The position numbers were made by a program, and so were the translations under genes. 7,139 nt of DNA from Desulfobacterales bacterium (GTDB lineage Bacteria > Desulfobacterota > Desulfobacteria > Desulfobacterales > UBA2174_A): positions 1 to 7,139 of the forward strand of contig JALOPD010000179.1 of NCBI GenBank assembly GCA_025454075.1. Reading direction: 5' to 3'. The notes beneath the pieces were generated by a model, which saw only the letters and a program-made list of their open reading frames with translations, had not been told where the DNA came from and ran no database searches. Below are positions 1 through 7,139 of this stretch, one piece after another; the first letter of the stretch is position 1, and each line of letters starts with the position of its first letter.

Positions 1-1343
1 AGGATCTTGCCGCGCAGCGGCAGCACGGCCTGGGTGTTCTTGTCGCGCGCCTGCTTGGCCGAGCCCCCGGCCGAGTCGCCCTCCACCAGGAAGAGCTCGC
101 TCTCCTCCGGGTCCTGGGAGATGCAGTCCGTGAGCTTTCCGGGCAGCGCCGGCCCCACGCCCACCTTGCGCCGCACCACCTTGGCGGCTTCCTTCAGCCG
201 CCGGCGGGCGTTCTCGATGGCCATCTCGCAGAGCTTCTGCGCAGCCTCCGGGTTCTGGTTGAGCCAGTGCGAAAAGGCGTCCTGCACGACGCTGGCGATG
301 AAGGCCGTGCACTCCCGGGAGGAAAGCCGCTCCTTGGTCTGCCCGGAGAACTGCAGGTCCGCCAGCTTGGCCGACAGGATGTAGCTGCAGCGCTCCCAGA
401 CGTCTTCGGGGGTCAGCTTGACGCCGCGCGGAATGAAGCCGCGGAATTCGCCGAAATCGCGCAGCGCCGCCAGCAGCCCCGACCGGAACCCCACCACGTG
501 GGTGCCGCCCTGGGGGGTGGGGATCAGGTTCGCGAAGCTCTCGGCAATGCCGTCGCCGCCGTCCGGAAGCCAGATGACCGCCCAGCTGACCGATTCCTCC
601 TGCCCATCGACCTGGCCGACGAAGGGCTCCTCCGGGATGCGCTCGAAATTCTGAACGCTTTCAGCCAGATAATCTTTCAGACCGTCCTCGTAGTACCAGC
701 TGTCGCTCTGGCCGGAGGCCTCGTCCAGGAACGCGACCGTCAGCCGGGGGCACAGAACCGCCTTGGCCCGCAGAGTGTGCCGCAGCCGGCTGACCGAAAT
801 CTTCAGGGTTTCGAAATACTGCGCGTCCGGCCAGAAACGGATCGTGGTGCCGGTCTCGGACTTCCTGGTCTTGCCGACGGCCTTGAGATCGGCGGTTTTC
901 TGGCCGGCCTTGTAACTCATCCGGTACAGTTGTCCGTTGCGGCGGATCTCGACGTCGAGGCGGGTGGACAGCGCATTGACCACCGACACCCCGACCCCGT
1001 GCAGACCTCCCGAAAACTGGTAGTTCTTGTGACCGAATTTCGCCCCGGCATGCAGGCGGGTCATGATCACCTCGACCCCGGACACTTTCTCCTCCGGATG
1101 CTGGTCGACGGGCATGCCCCGGCCGTTGTCGACGACCTGCAGCGAGCCGTCCTTGAACAGCGTGACATCGATCCGGTCGCCGAATCCGGCGATGGCCTCG
1201 TCCACGGCGTTGTCGATGACCTCGTGAGCCAGATGGTTCGGCCGGGTGGTGTCCGTGTACATGCCCGGCCGCCGTTTGACCGGGTCGAGGCCCCGCAGCA
1301 CCTCCAGGTCGGCGGCATTGTAGTGATTCGAGTGGTTTTTCAT
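1..1343 (-). CDS. parE: DNA topoisomerase IV subunit B (ParE), N-terminal 447 residues; C-terminus beyond the left edge
   Basis: This is the ATPase subunit of topoisomerase IV, which with ParC decatenates daughter chromosomes using ATP. The frame is open without a stop from the ATG at 1343 to the window edge. Visible in order: the ParE-type segment RPGMYTDTTRPNH (residues 25-37), where GyrB instead has an MYIGDT-type sequence; the GHKL N-box with E41 and N45; DNGRGMP at 72-78; the ATP-lid GGLHGVG at 112-118; the QTK loop with K337; and the TOPRIM start EGDSAGGSAKQARD from E421. Family length is about 630 residues, so roughly 180 residues, including the TOPRIM DxD, lie outside. The start is the first ATG after an in-frame TGA at 1362-1364. 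The Shine-Dalgarno is poor: GAGGG lies only 1 nt from the ATG, or AGG 8 nt away. There is no frameshift. ParE rather than GyrB is a confident call. Confidence 0.96.
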   Translation of the reverse strand, partial: MKNHSNHYNAADLEVLRGLDPVKRRPGMYTDTTRPNHLAHEVIDNAVDEAIAGFGDRIDVTLFKDGSLQVVDNGRGMPVDQHPEEKVSGVEVIMTRLHAGAKFGHKNYQFSGGLHGVGVSVVNALSTRLDVEIRRNGQLYRMSYKAGQKTADLKAVGKTRKSETGTTIRFWPDAQYFETLKISVSRLRHTLRAKAVLCPRLTVAFLDEASGQSDSWYYEDGLKDYLAESVQNFERIPEEPFVGQVDGQEESVSWAVIWLPDGGDGIAESFANLIPTPQGGTHVVGFRSGLLAALRDFGEFRGFIPRGVKLTPEDVWERCSYILSAKLADLQFSGQTKERLSSRECTAFIASVVQDAFSHWLNQNPEAAQKLCEMAIENARRRLKEAAKVVRRKVGVGPALPGKLTDCISQDPEESELFLVEGDSAGGSAKQARDKNTQAVLPLRGKI

Positions 1344-1363
1344 TCCCTCAGCCTGAATGGATC

Positions 1364-1391
1364 AACATATTGAGATATTGAACCGAGTCGA
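1364..1391 (-). promoter_or_regulatory. Weak sigma70-like promoter candidate for parE
   Basis: On the minus strand TCGACT (1386-1391, 4 of 6 to TTGACA) and TATGTT (1364-1369, 4 of 6 to TATAAT) are separated by 16 nt. The -10 box lies about 20 nt upstream of the parE ATG. Both boxes are mediocre, and parE could instead be read from the cysteine-rich gene upstream. Confidence 0.25.
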
Positions 1392-1497
1392 GCGTACTAA
1401 TAGTGGGTCAGTCTATCAGGATTTCGTTGTAAAGGCCAGTCAGGGAGAAACCGCCGGTGGGCTCGAATACGGATTCAATGAGACGCCGAACTGCGGG

Positions 1498-1535
1498 CCG
1501 GACGGGCGCGGCCGGCGGCATCGGCCGCCGTCCGG
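1498..1535 (-). terminator. Strong GC hairpin just after the cysteine-rich gene; possible terminator without a U-tract
   Basis: CCGGACGG (1498-1505) pairs perfectly with CCGTCCGG (1528-1535). Nested inside is a competing perfect 6-bp hairpin, GGCGGC (1514-1519) with GCCGCC (1524-1529) and a 4-nt loop. It begins 7 nt past the stop codon of the cysteine-rich gene. On the minus strand no T-run follows, so it may slow polymerase or protect the mRNA 3' end rather than act as a classical intrinsic terminator. On the plus strand TTTTT follows at 1546-1550, but no plus-strand gene leads into it. Confidence 0.4.
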
Positions 1536-1541
1536 TCCGTC

Positions 1542-1823
1542 TCAGTTTTTCGACTGCATCCTGTTCTTCATTTCCTGCTGGGCGTCCGCACTGTCGCAGT
1601 GCCCGTCCAGGGCAACACAGTAGTGCATACAGCGGCCGCCGCCTGAAGACGGCTTGAAGAACCGGCAACTCCTTTGATTCATTATCAAAGGGCCGGCACC
1701 GCATTTGGACATGAATCCGAGGATGCAGCAGTTGGCTCTGCCGCGGGCGGGGTCCGTAGTATCAGTGCAGGTATCAGTGCAATCGACATGCGCGCATGTG
1801 GCGCAATGCTCATGGTTGTTCAT
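1542..1823 (-). CDS. Small cysteine-rich hypothetical protein (93 aa)
   Basis: I do not recognise the family. The 93-residue product has 11 cysteines, at positions 7, 10, 15, 19, 32, 33, 41, 53, 65, 69 and 76, plus histidines at 4, 6, 12, 67 and 75. Spacings include CxxC (7-10), CxxxC (15-19, 65-69) and a CC pair, which suggests binding of zinc or an iron-sulfur cluster (inference). There is no signal peptide or membrane segment, so it is probably cytoplasmic. The frame is open as far as a TTG at 1883, but the ATG at 1823 is chosen because the cysteine pattern begins right after it. No good Shine-Dalgarno precedes it. A TATAAC box at 1833-1838 ends 9 nt before the ATG, which would allow a nearly leaderless message. 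Residues 15-22 are a CTDT-CTDT duplication. It lies upstream of parE on the same strand, but a strong hairpin separates the two. Confidence 0.6.
   Translation of the reverse strand: MNNHEHCATCAHVDCTDTCTDTTDPARGRANCCILGFMSKCGAGPLIMNQRSCRFFKPSSGGGRCMHYCVALDGHCDSADAQQEMKNRMQSKN
1759..1782. repeat. 12-bp tandem duplication inside the cysteine-rich gene
   Basis: GTATCAGTGCAG (1759-1770) is followed directly by GTATCAGTGCAA (1771-1782), 11 of 12 bases identical. It is in frame and encodes the repeated tetrapeptide CTDT (residues 15-22 of the minus-strand protein). It looks like a slippage duplication that added one cysteine. Confidence 0.8.
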
Positions 1824-1983
1824 GATGCCAACGTTATATGAAATCGGCGCGGCCGGCGGTCGCTCAGCAGCGCAGATAGTCAAGCATTCAGGTCGGATGA
1901 ACTCGCAAACCGCCTGGAATGCGGTGTTCTGTATTCCTGAGCGGCCTGTTTTATAAATACCATCGCGAATGAAAACAATCGGT

Positions 1984-2072
1984 CACCCCCACCCTGCTTC
2001 CCCCGTCTAGCGGGAGGAGAATCTGATATGGATCCCCCTCCCCATTTCGGGGAGGGAGGCCGGGTGGGGGTG
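1984..2072. repeat. Palindromic intergenic repeat, cloverleaf-like (REP/MITE-like)
   Basis: Perfect 11-bp terminal inverted repeats, CACCCCCACCC (1984-1994) and GGGTGGGGGTG (2062-2072), enclose two smaller hairpins. These are CCCG/CGGG around TCTAG (2002-2014) and CCCTCCCC/GGGGAGGG around ATTTC (2036-2056). The three-stem layout and the C-rich to G-rich asymmetry resemble dispersed intergenic repeats found in many copies in some proteobacterial genomes. Copy number cannot be judged from one window. No transposase is present. Confidence 0.65.
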
Positions 2073-2128
2073 TTCGCGCGGCACCATTCGGGGTGGTATT
2101 TAGGGAAAGCGCTATTTGGAAACCGGCC

Positions 2129-2158
2129 GACGGGTGCCCGGCGGGCCATGCGCCCGTC
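2129..2158 (-). terminator. 9-bp hairpin downstream of the DinB-like gene
   Basis: GACGGGTGC (2129-2137) pairs with GCGCCCGTC (2150-2158), including one G-T pair, around a 12-nt GC-rich loop that can form its own short stem. It lies about 115 nt past the DinB-like stop. No T-run follows on either strand, so a terminator role is only possible, not shown. Confidence 0.25.
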
Positions 2159-2164
2159 CAGCTC

Positions 2165-2230
2165 TTGATCAGCCCTTACTTTTCAAAATAATTGCGCCAG
2201 CAGGCCCTGTCAAAAAGGAGGGTAGCCATG
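2165..2230 (+). promoter_or_regulatory. Plus-strand promoter-like boxes with a strong ribosome binding site and ATG, facing into the DinB-like gene
   Basis: TTGATC (2165-2170) and AATAAT (2187-2192, 5 of 6 to TATAAT) are 16 nt apart. AGGAGG (2216-2221) stands 6 nt before an ATG at 2228. The frame from that ATG stays open to 2674 but runs antisense through the DinB-like gene, and its arginine- and glycine-rich composition looks like a GC-rich shadow. The start signals are better than those of several real genes here. They could be the remnant of a lost gene, a short peptide leader, or chance. Confidence 0.3.
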
Positions 2231-2272
2231 CGACGATTACCGTGCCGGCCGGGGAAAACCGCCCGAATCAGA

Positions 2273-2752
2273 TCAAGACCCCGCGGCGGCCTGCATGCTC
2301 GCGAAATGCTCACCCCCCGACGCGAGGATCACCGCCTCGATCAGCTGCTGCGCGGTCATCTTGCCGCCGGCCAGGGCGAGGTATCCGGTTCGGTCCAGCT
2401 CGGCGTCGGAAAGCCCGGCCGCGAAGTCGGCGAGGGCCGCGCCGTTGGCGCGCAGCAGGCCCAGCACCTCTTCGCGTGTGCACGCGGCATGCTGGCGAGC
2501 GTGCGTGTTGGCCATTTCGACGAGCTGATCCATCGTGAACTCCGGCAGTTTTTCGCCCTTTACGATCATGCGGGCCAGATCGACCGCCTCGAAATGCCCG
2601 CAGGCGATATGCCGGGCGGTCACGCCCACCGGCCACTCCTCTTTTTGGCAGGTTTTCTTCCAGTTTTGCTCTGAACAGCCTTCGACGAAGGCGATGATTT
2701 CCGCGTTGAACGCCCGCAGGCGTTCGGCCAGTTGTTTCGCTCTCGCGCTCAT
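2273..2752 (-). CDS. DinB/YfiT-like superfamily protein (159 aa)
   Basis: A predicted cytoplasmic four-helix-bundle protein of the DinB-like fold, a family of putative metal- and thiol-dependent enzymes whose members are mostly uncharacterised. The length fits. The conserved first-half pattern is visible: an N-terminal amphipathic helix, then W40-P41 followed by ARHIACGHFEA with H48 and H53, and a C-terminal helix ending GGEHFASM with H149. The usual C-terminal HxxxH pair is incomplete: the place of the first His is S145, so the three-histidine metal site may be altered or use H53, H84 or H88. The ATG at 2752 is chosen over an upstream TTG at 2785 because GGAGG sits 5 nt before it. It has its own promoter (2792-2820), overlapped by a palindrome. 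It is not the DNA polymerase IV also called DinB. Its substrate is unknown. Confidence 0.75.
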   Translation of the reverse strand: MSARAKQLAERLRAFNAEIIAFVEGCSEQNWKKTCQKEEWPVGVTARHIACGHFEAVDLARMIVKGEKLPEFTMDQLVEMANTHARQHAACTREEVLGLLRANGAALADFAAGLSDAELDRTGYLALAGGKMTAQQLIEAVILASGGEHFASMQAAAGS

Positions 2753-2757
2753 ATGGG

Positions 2758-2762
2758 CCTCC
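2758..2762 (-). promoter_or_regulatory. Ribosome binding site that fixes the DinB-like start
   Basis: GGAGG on the minus strand lies 5 nt upstream of the ATG at 2752. The alternative TTG start at 2785 lies next to the predicted transcription start and has no such site. Confidence 0.75.
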
Positions 2763-2777
2763 CGTTTTGATTTGGCG

Positions 2778-2794
2778 AATCCCAACTTGGGATT
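2778..2794. promoter_or_regulatory. Perfect 17-bp palindrome over the DinB-like promoter: candidate operator
   Basis: AATCCCAA-C-TTGGGATT has two 8-bp arms that match perfectly. It covers the expected transcription start and shares three bases with the -10 box (2792-2797). This is where a dimeric repressor would block initiation. No regulator gene in the window is an obvious partner. The short 1-nt centre makes an RNA hairpin unlikely. Confidence 0.55.
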
Positions 2795-2820
2795 ATAAGC
2801 ATCTTCCAGTTTTGTGTAAT
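2792..2820 (-). promoter_or_regulatory. Sigma70-type promoter of the DinB-like gene
   Basis: On the minus strand a perfect TATAAT (2792-2797) and ATTACA (2815-2820, 4 of 6 to TTGACA) are separated by exactly 17 nt. Initiation would fall near 2784, giving a leader of about 32 nt to the ATG at 2752. It lies in the 38-nt spacer after the DUF4276 stop region, so the DinB-like gene need not depend on the module upstream. Confidence 0.65.
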
Positions 2821-2857
2821 TTCATCCCCATGATCAGCAGCGCCCAAGAAGCCTCGT

Positions 2858-3487
2858 TCAGCTGAATGGGTGGTTCCCTTTTAACAATGAAGCCCGTCTA
2901 ATAAGGTTTTGGATATCTCGAAAGCACTTGTCAAACGAACCAGCACATCGAGCTAAATCCATGTCAAATTCTGCGGTTAATGCCGGCTGGTCGGTGGTTT
3001 CGGAATAGACCCGCTCTGAGATCATTTTTTTGCTAAGCCACTCTTTAGCCCCTCGAATGTTTTCCGGGTCTTTCGGGGGTTGAAGGTCCCAGGGAAGACC
3101 GCGCTTCCCACGCAGGGATTCGGCCGCAGCTAAAAACCAGGCTTCAAATTCCTGTTTTGCAAGAACCACCGCAATTGGCAAATCCTTATGCACCGATAAA
3201 GCACGCTCCAGCAATTTGGGGCCGTCTTGGGCGGGGCAGCATTCCGCCCAATCACAATCTATTAGAACAAGTATTCCGCCTCTGCCTCCAATCTTGCGTG
3301 CAGCAAAATTCACAGTCCTTTCAATCTCACCTGCTTTGAGTAGTCTATTGGCTGGTACTCGCAAGGGTGGTAATACGCTCACAATAAAATCCGTTTTGAT
3401 GAGTTGTGCAATTCTTCGAATGAGAATCGGCACAGCTTCGACTTCGCCGTGACCTTCGACAATAGCGGCAATCTTTATTATTGGCAT
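2858..3487 (-). CDS. DUF4276 family protein, TOPRIM-like putative nuclease partner of the ATPase (209 aa)
   Basis: DUF4276 proteins carry a TOPRIM-like fold, as in OLD-family nucleases, primases and topoisomerases, and are usually found beside AAA ATPases. The TOPRIM signature is visible: strand 1 IAAIVEGHGE with E11 and E15, then ILVLIDCDW (72-80) with the acidic pair D77 and D79, and KQEFEAWFLA (111-120) with E113 and E115. Later family-like text is RGAKEWL (145-151) and the motif around TDQPALTAEFD (165-175). There is no signal peptide or membrane helix. The ATG overlaps the end of the ATPase gene by 10 nt and has no clear Shine-Dalgarno, so translation is probably coupled. The likely role is the metal-dependent nuclease effector of a two-protein defence system. 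The fold and acidic residues are observed or family knowledge; the activity is inference. The composition is AT-richer than the flanks. Confidence 0.85.
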   Translation of the reverse strand: MPIIKIAAIVEGHGEVEAVPILIRRIAQLIKTDFIVSVLPPLRVPANRLLKAGEIERTVNFAARKIGGRGGILVLIDCDWAECCPAQDGPKLLERALSVHKDLPIAVVLAKQEFEAWFLAAAESLRGKRGLPWDLQPPKDPENIRGAKEWLSKKMISERVYSETTDQPALTAEFDMDLARCAGSFDKCFRDIQNLIRRASLLKGNHPFS

Positions 3488-4704
3488 GGAATAAAATCTG
3501 CAAAAAGGTCAAGCTGTTTTGGACCGATTTCGCTTATGGCTGAATCGTCTGGCTCAATCTGATTCAAACGCAATAGTTCCCCGGCAGTATATAGCCGTTC
3601 TCTGATCGCAGATCGCCCCGCTTCATCGAGGGGCCCAAGTTTTGTCTCGCCGCTCCGGTTCACGACCGCCAGAATGCTCGAATCCGGTAAATTCTTATCG
3701 TCCACAAGTTCTGGACTATGACTGGTAACTGCCACCTGGGTAACTCTTGACGCTGCCAGTAATGCATCGAGGAGTACACCCGCCGCACCTGGATGGACGG
3801 CCATCTCCGGTTCCTCGATTCCCACGAACAAAACAGCTTTGGCCGCCGTTCGAGATGATTGGAAAAGCGCGGTTAAAACGCCTAGCGCCCGTAATGTTCC
3901 ATCAGACATATTCTCCGCCATGAACCGCCAGGCTTCTTTATTATTTCCGACAAGTTGGCGAAATTCCAAGGTCTCTTTTTTTCCGGCATGCTTAACGGTC
4001 ACATCCTTTATCCCCGGGACCACTTTAGATAGAAATTCGATAACACGCGCATGCGTTCCTTTGCTTTCCTTTTCCATGGAACTCAAAACGCTGGACAAAT
4101 TGCTGCCATCGCGCTTAAGCACTTCGCCCGGGTCAGGCTGTTGAAGCTCTCGTATCTCATCTGGGTTTAAATTATAGAAACCCATGCGTGACAGCGCGTC
4201 GTATAGCGGCCGAAATTCAGGCAGACCCGATGCTGCCACCAGATACAGACGGTCAGTGGAAGCCGGAGGGCCGACTCCGAAGCTGGATTCCTTAAGCTTG
4301 CCCGCCTCAATCCGGTAAAAGCTGTCATTCTCCAAAAGAGAATTGTTCGAAACCCGGCAGTCTTCCCTTTGGATCTCGAACCCCCTCCTCTCCTTTGAAC
4401 CAACCCGAAATGCATAGATGCCTTGAGTGTTATTTGGCAGTCGCCATTCAATCCGAATGCCGAAATGGGTGGGGTGGCCGGAGGATCTTCGTCTGACTTC
4501 ATTGATCCCGCCTCTCTCCCGCAAGGCGTGTTCAAGAGATGTATTCAGAGACTCAGCTACCAATCGAAGTGCATCGAGAAAATTGCTTTTACCGGCCCCA
4601 TTCTGACCTACCAGGAATGTCAGCGCACCAAGGGAAACAGAGCACTCCTTTATGCTTTTATAGTTGTTCAGGACCACTCTTCGCAGAAATACTGGATTAG
4701 CCAT
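3478..4704 (-). CDS. AAA family ATPase, SMC/OLD-like, partner of the DUF4276 protein (408 aa)
   Basis: A cytoplasmic P-loop ATPase of the ABC/SMC-related group (OLD, RecF and AAA_15/AAA_21 type). In order: the N-terminal strand pattern LRRVVLNNYKSI (7-18); Walker A GQNGAGKSN (33-41); an insertion domain of about 200 residues, without an obvious coiled coil; the signature-like MSDGTLR (266-272); Walker B VLFVGIEEPE (291-300), where E297-E298 supply the acidic residues; the H-loop-like TSHSPEL (327-333); and LYTAGELLRLNQIEPD near the C-terminus (371-386). No TOPRIM domain is fused, unlike OLD or GajA; that part is supplied by the next gene. The ATG at 4704 is chosen over a GTG at 4710 because AGGTGG lies 6 nt before it. 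It is the first gene of the pair and overlaps DUF4276 by 10 nt. The likely role is nucleotide-dependent sensing and scaffold for the nuclease partner (inference). Confidence 0.88.
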   Translation of the reverse strand: MANPVFLRRVVLNNYKSIKECSVSLGALTFLVGQNGAGKSNFLDALRLVAESLNTSLEHALRERGGINEVRRRSSGHPTHFGIRIEWRLPNNTQGIYAFRVGSKERRGFEIQREDCRVSNNSLLENDSFYRIEAGKLKESSFGVGPPASTDRLYLVAASGLPEFRPLYDALSRMGFYNLNPDEIRELQQPDPGEVLKRDGSNLSSVLSSMEKESKGTHARVIEFLSKVVPGIKDVTVKHAGKKETLEFRQLVGNNKEAWRFMAENMSDGTLRALGVLTALFQSSRTAAKAVLFVGIEEPEMAVHPGAAGVLLDALLAASRVTQVAVTSHSPELVDDKNLPDSSILAVVNRSGETKLGPLDEAGRSAIRERLYTAGELLRLNQIEPDDSAISEIGPKQLDLFADFIPCQ

Positions 4705-4710
4705 GGCCAC

Positions 4711-4733
4711 CCACCTATTATTCTCATTATTCT
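4711..4733 (-). promoter_or_regulatory. Ribosome binding site and 8-bp direct repeat before the ATPase
   Basis: AGGTGG (4711-4716 on the minus strand) decides for the ATG at 4704. Directly upstream, AGAATAAT occurs twice (4726-4733 and 4717-4724) with one base between. The repeat may keep the ribosome site unpaired or bind a regulator; no function is shown. I found no convincing -35/-10 pair in the 174-nt gap, although it is AT-rich. Confidence 0.5.
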
Positions 4734-4835
4734 GGAAGGGTTACATATACGCCCGGGTTGATCGCAGAATCGGAATTCTCAAAGATTATCCGCTCTTTTG
4801 ATTTCGATTAGTTCTTTCTTACCAACATATCAAGG

Positions 4836-4856
4836 AAAACTGTCGAATATGGACAG
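4836..4856 (-). terminator. Weak intrinsic terminator candidate after the gluconokinase gene
   Basis: On the minus strand CTGTC (4852-4856) and GACAG (4840-4844) form a 5-bp stem with a 7-nt loop, followed at once by TTTT (4836-4839). It lies about 22 nt past the kinase stop codon, a sensible place to end the sugar-acid operon before the ATPase gene. The stem is short, so termination would be partial at best. Confidence 0.35.
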
Positions 4857-4878
4857 AACGATTATCGACGTGTCGCTT

Positions 4879-6420
4879 TCACAATTTCAGTTCATTTTGC
4901 AGCCGGGCGATGTCTTCGAAACCATCGGTTAATAAACGGTAAAGACGGGAGTATTGAGGATAGATCCGGTTGTAAACGGCTGCATGCTCCGCAACCGGCC
5001 GTTGGACCCGGCTGAACCGCACCCAGTCCCGGATATCATCTATGCAGCCGGCGCCGCCCGCGGCAAGAAACGGCCAGAAGGCCGCGGCCAGGGCGGATGT
5101 CTCGCCCCACACCGGGACGGACAGCTCGCGCCCCAGCACGTCGGCCATGGTCTGCAGCCAGAGCGGCGACTGGGTGAACCCGCCCGAGGCCACGACCTGC
5201 CGCACGTCCACCTCCATTTCCTGCAGCACCTCGAACACGCTCCGGAGCCGAAACCCGACCCCCTCGAGCAGCGCCCGGGCCAGGTGGCACGCCTCGTGCG
5301 CGAGGGTCATCCCGAAGAAGACCGCCCGGGCGTTCAGGTTCCAGTCGGGGCTGCGCTCGCCGGCAAAGAACGGCAGGCAGATCAGGCCGCCGGAGCCCAC
5401 CGGGGCGCTCTCCGCCAGCGCGAGGATGTCTTCGAACGAGAGCGGCTTCGCCCCGGAACCGCGGCCGATCGCCTGGTTGAGGACGTCCCGCAGCCAGGCG
5501 AGCGCCACGCCGCCGTTGTTGATGGCGCCGCCCACCAGCCAGTGCGCCTCGTCGACGGCATAGCACCAGCTGCGGGCCCTGGCGTCCAATACCGGCCGGG
5601 AAGCCACCACCCTGAGCGCGCCGGAAGTCCCCACCATCAGGGTGGCCTGGGTCGGCAGCACGGCGCCGGCACCCAGGCTCGAATTTGCGGAGTCGGCCGA
5701 GCCGGTCACGACCGGTGTTCCGACGGGAAGCCCCATTTTCTGGGCGGCTTCCGGCTGCAGGCGGCCCGCCGGGGCGGCCGGAGATGCCGGCGGGGAAAGC
5801 TGCTCGGGGCGGACCCCGGCCAGAGCGAGCGCATCTTCGCTCCAGCGGAGGAAATGCGTGTTCAGCAGGCCCGTCCCGGCCGCCAGGGCGTAGTCGATCT
5901 GCCAGCTGCCGGTCAGGCGGAAGCCGGCGTACTCCTTGGCGGAAACGTAGCGTCGCGCGCTCTTGAAAACCTCCGGCCGGTGCTCGCGCAGCCACAGGAT
6001 CTTGTAGAGCGGGTACATCCCGTGCGGCGGGCAGCCGGTCTCACGATAGAGCTTCATTCCGGCCGGAGTGGCGGCGACGGCCCGCGCCTGCTCGACGGCC
6101 CGCCCGTCGGCCCAGGTGATGACGCCGGTGAGGGGCCGATCCCGTTCGTCCAGGGCCATGACGCCGTGCATGGCGCCGCCGATGCTCATCCCGCCGCAGC
6201 CCGCCGGCGGGGCGCCGGACCGTTCCAGCGCCTGGCGCACGGCCGCGATCAGGGCCTCGAGCAGGGCCTGCGGCTCCTGCTCCTGCCAGCGCTGCCGGCT
6301 CTCGGCCCCGGGGTATTCGGCCGTCCCGAAACCGAGCACCCGGCCGGTCTCGTCCACCGCCGCCACCTTGCAGCTGCCGGTGCCGAGGTCGATGCCGAGA
6401 AACCATGCGGAAGTCGTCAT
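4879..6420 (-). CDS. gntK: FGGY-family carbohydrate kinase, most like gluconokinase (513 aa)
   Basis: A cytoplasmic sugar kinase, probably phosphorylating D-gluconate to 6-phosphogluconate with ATP (EC 2.7.1.12). The length is typical for the family. Motifs in order: phosphate-1 loop FLGIDLGTGSCK (7-18); gluconokinase-like AMHGVMALDE (83-92) and ITWADGR (101-107); TGSADSANSSLG (239-250) with the expected catalytic base D243; phosphate-2 GTSGALR (264-270); CYAVDEAHWLVGGAINNGG (286-304), which matches Bacillus GntK better than xylulokinase; FFAGERSPDWN (351-361) with the following RAVFFG; and the adenosine motif ASGGF (411-415). Its ATG follows the stop of the LarA-like gene by one base (TGA-C-ATG), so the two are translationally coupled. 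Xylulokinase or another FGGY substrate remains possible, but the motif set favours gluconate. Confidence 0.88.
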   Translation of the reverse strand: MTTSAWFLGIDLGTGSCKVAAVDETGRVLGFGTAEYPGAESRQRWQEQEPQALLEALIAAVRQALERSGAPPAGCGGMSIGGAMHGVMALDERDRPLTGVITWADGRAVEQARAVAATPAGMKLYRETGCPPHGMYPLYKILWLREHRPEVFKSARRYVSAKEYAGFRLTGSWQIDYALAAGTGLLNTHFLRWSEDALALAGVRPEQLSPPASPAAPAGRLQPEAAQKMGLPVGTPVVTGSADSANSSLGAGAVLPTQATLMVGTSGALRVVASRPVLDARARSWCYAVDEAHWLVGGAINNGGVALAWLRDVLNQAIGRGSGAKPLSFEDILALAESAPVGSGGLICLPFFAGERSPDWNLNARAVFFGMTLAHEACHLARALLEGVGFRLRSVFEVLQEMEVDVRQVVASGGFTQSPLWLQTMADVLGRELSVPVWGETSALAAAFWPFLAAGGAGCIDDIRDWVRFSRVQRPVAEHAAVYNRIYPQYSRLYRLLTDGFEDIARLQNELKL

Positions 6421-6421
6421 G

Positions 6422-7139
6422 TCAACGTTCCAGGCGGTGGAGGATTTCGCCCGCGGGGTCCACGAAGAGGATCCCCTCGCCTTCCCGGTTCATGTAGTCG
6501 GCCAGGCGGATGCCGGCCGGGTCCAGGTAGCCGACGTTGATCCTGCGGCAGACCTCCTCCGGGATCGAGGTGGCGAGGACCAGGTTGACGGCGGGCCGCT
6601 CCACGCCCCCCGCGTAGCTGCCGGTCCCGCGCACGTGAGTCAGGTGCGCCAGCACGCCGCGCGGGACATGCCCGAGCCGGTCCATGTGCGCGAGTAGGTA
6701 TTCGCGGATGTGGTAGCCGACCGCCTCGATGTGGCGGCCCCAGGTCCGCGACACCTCGCGGATATGGGGGGCGTAGATGATGAGGGTTCCCTGGTCGACC
6801 ACGACCTGTTCGAGCTTGTACATGACCTTGCCCGCGGTCCAGATCTCGTCGTACATGGCGGGCGCCACGCCGAACACCAGCCGGAAGGGAGCCTTCTTCG
6901 TCACGATGTGGATCCGCGCGGACAGGTCCGCCGCCCGCGACCAGGCCGCGCGGGCATCGCCCGCGTACAGCCCGCACAGGCCCGCCCCGTGGTCGACCAC
7001 CATGGCCAGGCAGCGGACCGGAACGGACACCATCTCCAGGGCCCGGTCGATCAGCCGCCGGACCGGCGTGTCCTTGATCCCGATGATCCGCTTGCAGCTG
7101 ATGACCGCCCCCAGCCAGTGGAAGAAGTGCAGGAACTCG
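6422..7139 (-). CDS. LarA-like (DUF2088, lactate racemase domain) protein, C-terminal 238 residues; N-terminus beyond the right edge
   Basis: The frame is open from the right edge to the TGA at 6422, so this is the C-terminal part of a protein usually of about 420 residues or more. The text fits LarA/DUF2088 proteins of the subgroup seen next to sugar-acid genes: GIKDTPVRRLIDRA, then a GLYAGDARAAW stretch, an IWTAGKVMYKLE segment, QGTLIIYAPHIREVS, the YHIREYLL stretch, and GVLAHLTHVRG. LarA racemises lactate using a nickel-pincer cofactor. The lysine in AGKVMYK (codon 6827-6829) matches by position the catalytic lysine of LarA's C-terminal domain (inference). The cofactor-bearing lysine and nearby histidines would lie in the missing N-terminal part. 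Coupling to a gluconokinase suggests racemisation or epimerisation of a sugar acid rather than lactate. ATG codons inside, such as 7033, are internal. Confidence 0.8.
   Translation of the reverse strand, partial: EFLHFFHWLGAVISCKRIIGIKDTPVRRLIDRALEMVSVPVRCLAMVVDHGAGLCGLYAGDARAAWSRAADLSARIHIVTKKAPFRLVFGVAPAMYDEIWTAGKVMYKLEQVVVDQGTLIIYAPHIREVSRTWGRHIEAVGYHIREYLLAHMDRLGHVPRGVLAHLTHVRGTGSYAGGVERPAVNLVLATSIPEEVCRRINVGYLDPAGIRLADYMNREGEGILFVDPAGEILHRLER

Follow-up and report, generated by a model that had tools for sequence, protein, structure and literature searches.

Does an ATPase gene that overlaps a DUF4276 gene form a two-gene defence module, and could its second product be the nuclease half of a machine of the OLD/PARIS kind? 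The question is raised by a 7,139-nucleotide stretch of DNA from a Desulfobacterales bacterium (contig JALOPD010000179.1 of assembly GCA_025454075.1, positions 1 to 7,139 of the forward strand), referred to here as the window. A sequence-only reading had picked out an ABC/SMC-type ATPase and a 209-residue DUF4276 protein in overlapping genes, and had proposed that together they follow the ATPase-plus-TOPRIM design of antiphage systems. Our analysis indicates that the pair is probably a horizontally acquired HEC-01 module, in which the ATPase would gate a TOPRIM nuclease effector with a putative role in defence.

The overlap, the motifs and their positions were all as that reading had given them:

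3478..4704, minus strand: ATPase open reading frame of the HEC-01A type, ABC/SMC/OLD-like, 408 residues; ATG at 4704, with a GTG at 4710 as a possible alternative start
2858..3487, minus strand: DUF4276 open reading frame of the HEC-01B type, 209 residues, predicted TOPRIM nuclease
3478..3487, minus strand: overlap of the two reading frames, 10 nucleotides
4582..4608, minus strand: Walker A motif GQNGAGKSN, ATPase residues 33-41; GxNGxGKSN in 74 of 79 ATPase rows
3805..3816, minus strand: Walker B motif EEPE, ATPase residues 297-300; EEPE in 72 of 79 ATPase rows
3443..3457, minus strand: predicted TOPRIM glutamate motif EGHGE, DUF4276 residues 11-15; E11 in 79 of 81 rows
3251..3259, minus strand: DxD motif D77-C78-D79 (IDCD) of the DUF4276 protein; D77 in 80 of 81 rows, D79 in 74 of 81
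3137..3151, minus strand: EFEAW, DUF4276 residues 113-117; E113, E115 and W117 in 80 of 80 rows with letters at the site

The ATPase also carries MSDGTLR at residues 266-272 and TSHSP at residues 327-331, and the 10-nucleotide overlap of the frames suggests that translation of the two proteins may be coupled.

An ATPase-DUF4276 pair of the HEC-01 family

Both proteins fitted PADLOC-DB 2.0.0 profiles nearly end to end: the ATPase matched the HEC-01A model (PDLC04178, E 2.1e-159, residues 3-401) and its neighbour the HEC-01B model (PDLC04196, E 2.3e-70, residues 5-197). Pfam gave a consistent picture, with AAA_21 (77.6 bits) and AAA_15 (70.7 bits) in the ATPase and DUF4276 (PF14103, 38.2 bits) in the 209-residue protein, each exceeding its own cut-off. 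These profile matches, with the two genes adjacent, assign the pair to the candidate defence system HEC-01. Because PADLOC already models an ATPase with DUF4276 under this name, the combination had been catalogued before and is not new.

HEC stands for Hma-embedded candidate, and some HECs have been verified against phages, as described in extracts of PMC12111858, PMC12988326 and PMC12409356; HEC-01 itself is named among the systems of Desulfovibrio piger in an extract of PMC12724379. A full-text search of the open-licence literature, outside of which preprints and most subscription journals lie, returned no mention of DUF4276 or PF14103. The window copy differs from the namesake arrangement in that it lies outside any Hma locus within the window, between an FGGY kinase gene and a DinB-like gene; we treated Hma embedding as unnecessary for individual members.

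We then asked how regularly the two genes occur together, using the best 80 of 221 genome loci with a DUF4276 relative. An ATPase frame longer than 1 kb, on the same strand and ending at most 200 nucleotides from the DUF4276 start or overlapping it, was present at 74 of the 80. Three of the six exceptions lie at contig ends (L007, L026, L051), two have a broken ATPase (L023, L057) and one has no ATPase (L029); within the 74 paired loci, one ATPase is cut by the contig start (L020) and another is frameshifted (L046). In the wider family, collected from 18 genomes with the general Pfam model, an ATPase lay upstream of 28 of 30 DUF4276 genes, with the remaining two at contig ends; by contig positions, three of these 30 loci (L227, L237, L238) were already among the 80. 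In 288 kb of control DNA taken from these genomes, the ATPase profile had no match at E 1e-20 in any frame of at least 250 residues. The two proteins also had correlated tree distances (51 pairs, r 0.56), a value reached in none of 2,000 permutations. Pairing with the ATPase is thus the rule across the sampled DUF4276 genes, and the profile matches, together with the same gene order in relatives of many phyla, show that the association is not due to chance.

The alignments behind these results were drawn from several sources. From 120 listed homologues, of 4,424 found, 28 entered set A1 and 13 entered set A2, plus the window's own protein. A2 further took 57 of the 80 genome loci, with the two copies that lack E11 (L013, L029) among the 23 left out, and A3 took 63 of the 74 ATPase frames longer than 1 kb. 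The residue counts over 81 rows cover all 80 loci and the window.

Predicted fold and active site of the DUF4276 protein

TOPRIM domains are present in topoisomerases and primases as well as in nucleases of the kind considered here. The AlphaFold2 (AF2) model of the DUF4276 protein had a predicted local distance difference test (pLDDT) score of 95.6, and a Foldseek search with this model returned TOPRIM regions of OLD proteins as its top two matches; VIA ranks 1-2 were likewise OLD TOPRIM regions, and AriB appeared too. The structural scores were moderate, and lumazine synthase followed close behind the OLD TOPRIM regions in Z. A broad DUF4276 profile aligned with OLD TOPRIM through VEGxxE and DxD at a score of 31.7 (hhalign probability 33%), against at most 18.1 for 10 unrelated controls; its score with AriB was weak, at 21.1. 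A narrow DUF4276 profile gave no convincing alignment with OLD or AriB, and a sequence search of the PDB, with the protein as a single sequence or as a 71-row profile, returned no match. Taken together, the model comparison and the broad-profile score support a TOPRIM fold for the DUF4276 protein. The sequence-only reading had guessed at this fold and named its absence in a structure comparison as refuting the proposal; the comparison did not show such an absence, OLD TOPRIM regions ranking first.

In the broad alignment, EGHGE lines up with the VEGxxE motif of OLD TOPRIM. We propose that EFEAW is the third acidic motif of the putative TOPRIM site; it can be compared with FETSL of one OLD row and with DLETM of the DUF4435 rows. 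The second aspartate of the DxD motif is less constant in the wider family, where the D79 equivalent is Asp in 20 of 40 rows and otherwise Tyr, Glu or Asn. Given this variation, several DUF4276 subfamilies (rows L210-L239) may use a different metal site.

These observations are consistent with a mechanism in which the ATPase and the DUF4276 protein would form a complex. The ATP-bound ATPase would keep the nuclease inactive while sensing a phage product or an infection state, and the trigger would release or activate the DUF4276 protein. Either tRNA, the target of AriB, or DNA, the target of OLD enzymes, might then be cut by the DUF4276 protein, with the metal ions for cleavage held by E11, D77, D79 and E113/E115, and cleavage would stop the infected cell from growing. 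With DUF4276 assigned to the TOPRIM half of a split machine of the OLD/PARIS kind, the HEC-01 candidates would gain concrete catalytic residues and a predicted dependence on a partner.

Origin, surroundings and loss of the locus

The composition of the pair sets it apart from the rest of the window. Its guanine-plus-cytosine (GC) content is 0.48–0.51, against 0.57–0.70 in the other five window genes, and its GC content at third codon positions (GC3) is 0.44–0.50, against 0.68–0.94. The clade holding the window DUF4276 protein mixes Verrucomicrobiota, Elusimicrobiota, Chloroflexota and others. At E 1e-40, a DUF4276 match was present in one of 247 sampled genomes from the phylum of a Syntrophaceae relative, namely that relative itself (G002), and in four of 246 from the phylum of a Planctomycetota relative, G007, that relative included; the best identity to the window ParE in the former sample was 69%. 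From these sequence features, the window pair looks horizontally acquired. Searches of viral contigs found no relative of either protein; a phage collection gave one distant DUF4276 relative, in an unannotated record from human fecal samples (MT835995.1:22307-22810, 31.5% identity, E 2e-13), and the plasmid search matched three Streptomyces records.

To judge the surroundings of HEC-01 more broadly, we compared 88 nearest neighbours at 47 loci outside Poribacteria with 82 control genes, which came from 41 of the 47 control regions in the same genomes. At E 1e-10 the neighbours matched 99 PADLOC families and the controls 12; these figures count families rather than distinct proteins, and in many cases overlapping models describe one and the same helicase. 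The HmaA, DrmD and BrxH helicase models were matched three times each, and the HmaB, type II methylase and type III methylase models twice each. Pfam assigned four Helicase_C, four ResIII, three SNF2 and two N6/N4 methylase domains to the 88 neighbours, the rest being scattered and some metabolic, while no helicase or methylase was among the 25 Pfam families listed for the control genes. In total the neighbours matched 97 Pfam families and the controls 173, many of the latter being TPR models. Enrichment of defence genes near HEC-01 outside Poribacteria is modest but real. Weighing against a defence role, metabolic genes adjoin the pair in Poribacteria as they do in the window. The worry raised with the original proposal, that homologues might stand mainly beside metabolic genes, is thus borne out in part, at these two places, whereas elsewhere defence genes accompany the pair at some loci.

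Poribacteria provided a closer view of how the locus is kept and lost. In this phylum, a DUF4276 match was found in 58 of 84 genomes (one of them, in G026, distant and lacking an ATPase) and the ATPase in 60 of 84. Among the Poribacteria loci (L128-L134, L136-L192), 49 of the 60 genomes with the ATPase have the locus between an upstream gene for a PhyH-family dioxygenase and a downstream sulfatase gene, all on one strand, three of the 49 spanning two contigs; one flank was present in three of the 60 and neither in eight. The two flanking genes were named by Pfam at three loci. All 14 Poribacteria rows of the tree form a single clade (support 91).

Within this locus, the DUF4276 gene was broken or missing beside a long ATPase frame in ten genomes (G028, G030, G038, G048, G068, G071, G072, G081, G084, G089; the ATPase of G072 is split by a contig end). 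The remaining ATPase of G089 belongs to a clade of second ATPases, which leaves nine genomes that lost DUF4276 and kept their own ATPase. The reverse, a broken ATPase beside an open DUF4276 frame, occurred in three (G022, G069, G070). Three genomes at contig ends (G014, G036, G059) were left out of this count along with G089, and the spare ATPase of G022 was kept off the label count. On the ATPase tree the lost/intact label changed eight times over 53 rows (nine with G089), so the losses were mostly separate. Nine of the 12 one-gene breaks thus hit the shorter gene (p 0.0038 against gene-length share but a non-significant 0.073 against one half; numbers small), and any single case could reflect an assembly error.

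As a separate observation, four Poribacteria genomes have the order ATPase, DUF4276, second ATPase (L167, L182, L185, L190). Each of these four second ATPases is a full-length frame that has no nuclease to itself; in a fifth genome (L187) this is the only type kept.

The pattern of losses suggests a nuclease that is costly, and perhaps harmful, in the absence of its ATPase. This bears on the first alternative, a chromosomal toxin-antitoxin or addiction module in which the DUF4276 nuclease would be toxic alone and the ATPase would serve as antitoxin, with no specific sensing of phage. The nine-to-three imbalance fits such a module, as do the copies whose ATPase is compromised: G069 (locus L023) carries D79G, a further ATPase of full length lies on a separate contig of G022 (locus L046), and L029, a locus outside Poribacteria with no ATPase found, carries E11A. 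The third broken-ATPase genome, G070, nevertheless keeps all five acidic residues, and catalytic residues were also changed beside an intact ATPase (E11G in L013, D77N in L059, D79G in L037, and changes in L149 and L177); the loss of residues is thus not bound to loss of the ATPase. The imbalance also rests on few cases, the ATPase, large and of SMC/OLD type, is unlike a small antitoxin, and deletion of either PARIS gene was non-toxic according to an extract of PMC9122126. We regard this alternative as unlikely.

Domestication for a cellular function such as genome maintenance or the cell cycle is somewhat less likely again. It would account for the frequency of the locus in Poribacteria, its fixed flanks and its single clade, and an extract of PMC12796447 offers a precedent in Cran1, an archaeal OLD protein. 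The window copy, however, is compositionally foreign, and presence is patchy in the two other phyla sampled. About eight separate losses mean that DUF4276 is dispensable in Poribacteria, which a domesticated role fits badly. We entertain, as possible but on the whole doubtful, a different history: a HEC-01 nuclease that, in contrast to PARIS, would be dangerous without an ATPase that is both sensor and guard, captured once by Poribacteria as a fixed chromosomal locus and then repeatedly disarmed, while the ATPase persisted, perhaps in an independent role. The Poribacteria locus is in any event a natural series of effector losses that bears on the cost or toxicity of the nuclease without its partner.

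It also seems improbable that DUF4276 keeps the TOPRIM fold as something other than a nuclease, for instance a nucleotide-binding regulator. The replacement of D79 in half of the wider-family rows and the occurrence of TOPRIM domains in topoisomerases and primases would allow it, but E11, D77, E113 and E115 are strongly conserved and the protein, like its counterparts in nuclease systems, has an ATPase partner. Finally, the idea of an accessory to the neighbouring sugar-acid operon, to which the position of the pair downstream of the FGGY kinase on the same strand gives some appeal, was set aside as very improbable because the upstream gap (4711-4878) has 40% GC, GC3 and codon usage break strongly at the pair, and, at the 80 related loci, none of the genes up to six positions away from the pair matched the FGGY kinase, LarA-like or DinB-like protein of the window at E 1e-5.

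The rest of the window holds the LarA-like and FGGY kinase genes upstream of the pair and, downstream, the DinB-like gene, a small cysteine-rich open reading frame and parE. At 4879-7138 (minus strand) the FGGY kinase, gluconokinase-like but below the cut-off, adjoins the LarA-like protein, which weakly matches a nickel-dependent putative hexonate epimerase; the two may belong to a sugar-acid pathway. The cysteine-rich frame (1542-1883, minus strand, 113 residues) matched nothing in Pfam or NCBIfam at E 0.1. An imperfect inverted repeat at 1954-2102, with 49-nucleotide arms that are 73% complementary, starts TAAATACCA and ends TGGTATTTA and resembles a small transposon-like hairpin. A scan of the window found no tRNA and no Rfam match, four promoter-like sites (1.9 expected) and four terminator-like sites (2.9 expected).

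Comparison with known ATPase-TOPRIM systems

To the catalogued system this analysis adds support for a TOPRIM fold, the pairing rule among sampled DUF4276 genes, signs that the window copy was transferred, and the observation that loss in Poribacteria is one-sided. Among systems with other partners, we considered the MADS ATPase MAD3 and the PtuA of Septu and retrons; the MADS3 score was far under its cut-off of 420. HEC-04 (IbfA) belongs to the same Hma-embedded candidate series and likewise joins an ATPase to a TOPRIM domain, but as a single fused protein, active against T4 and T5 and inactive against T7 and lambda in extracts of PMC12111858, PMC12988326 and PMC12409356.

The OLD nucleases and GajA of Gabija share a related ATPase head, and the predicted fold of the DUF4276 protein is nearest to the C-terminal TOPRIM region of OLD. 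In those proteins both domains lie on one chain, whereas here they are separate: the ATPase frame stops after 408 residues, and Pfam gives it no TOPRIM match. On this ground we rejected single-gene OLD and Gabija, and no helicase, and so no UvrD-like GajB, was found among the seven window proteins scanned. PARIS is closer in layout, with two genes, an AAA_15/AAA_21-type ATPase (AriA), a TOPRIM protein (AriB) and the same order of acidic motifs. Its partner is a DUF4435 protein, four of which occupy stop-to-stop frames of 288-317 residues, compared with 209 residues for the window DUF4276 protein. DUF4435 (PF14491) was not matched, DUF4276 being the only Pfam family reported for the partner at E up to 0.1, and membership in PARIS was rejected. 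The design that the sequence-only reading recognized, an ABC/SMC-type ATPase with a TOPRIM-fold partner as in OLD and PARIS, is nonetheless upheld, here split over two nearly always paired genes. The best-supported interpretation of this locus is a TOPRIM nuclease gated by an ATPase, which in principle resembles PARIS and OLD but is built on another TOPRIM family.
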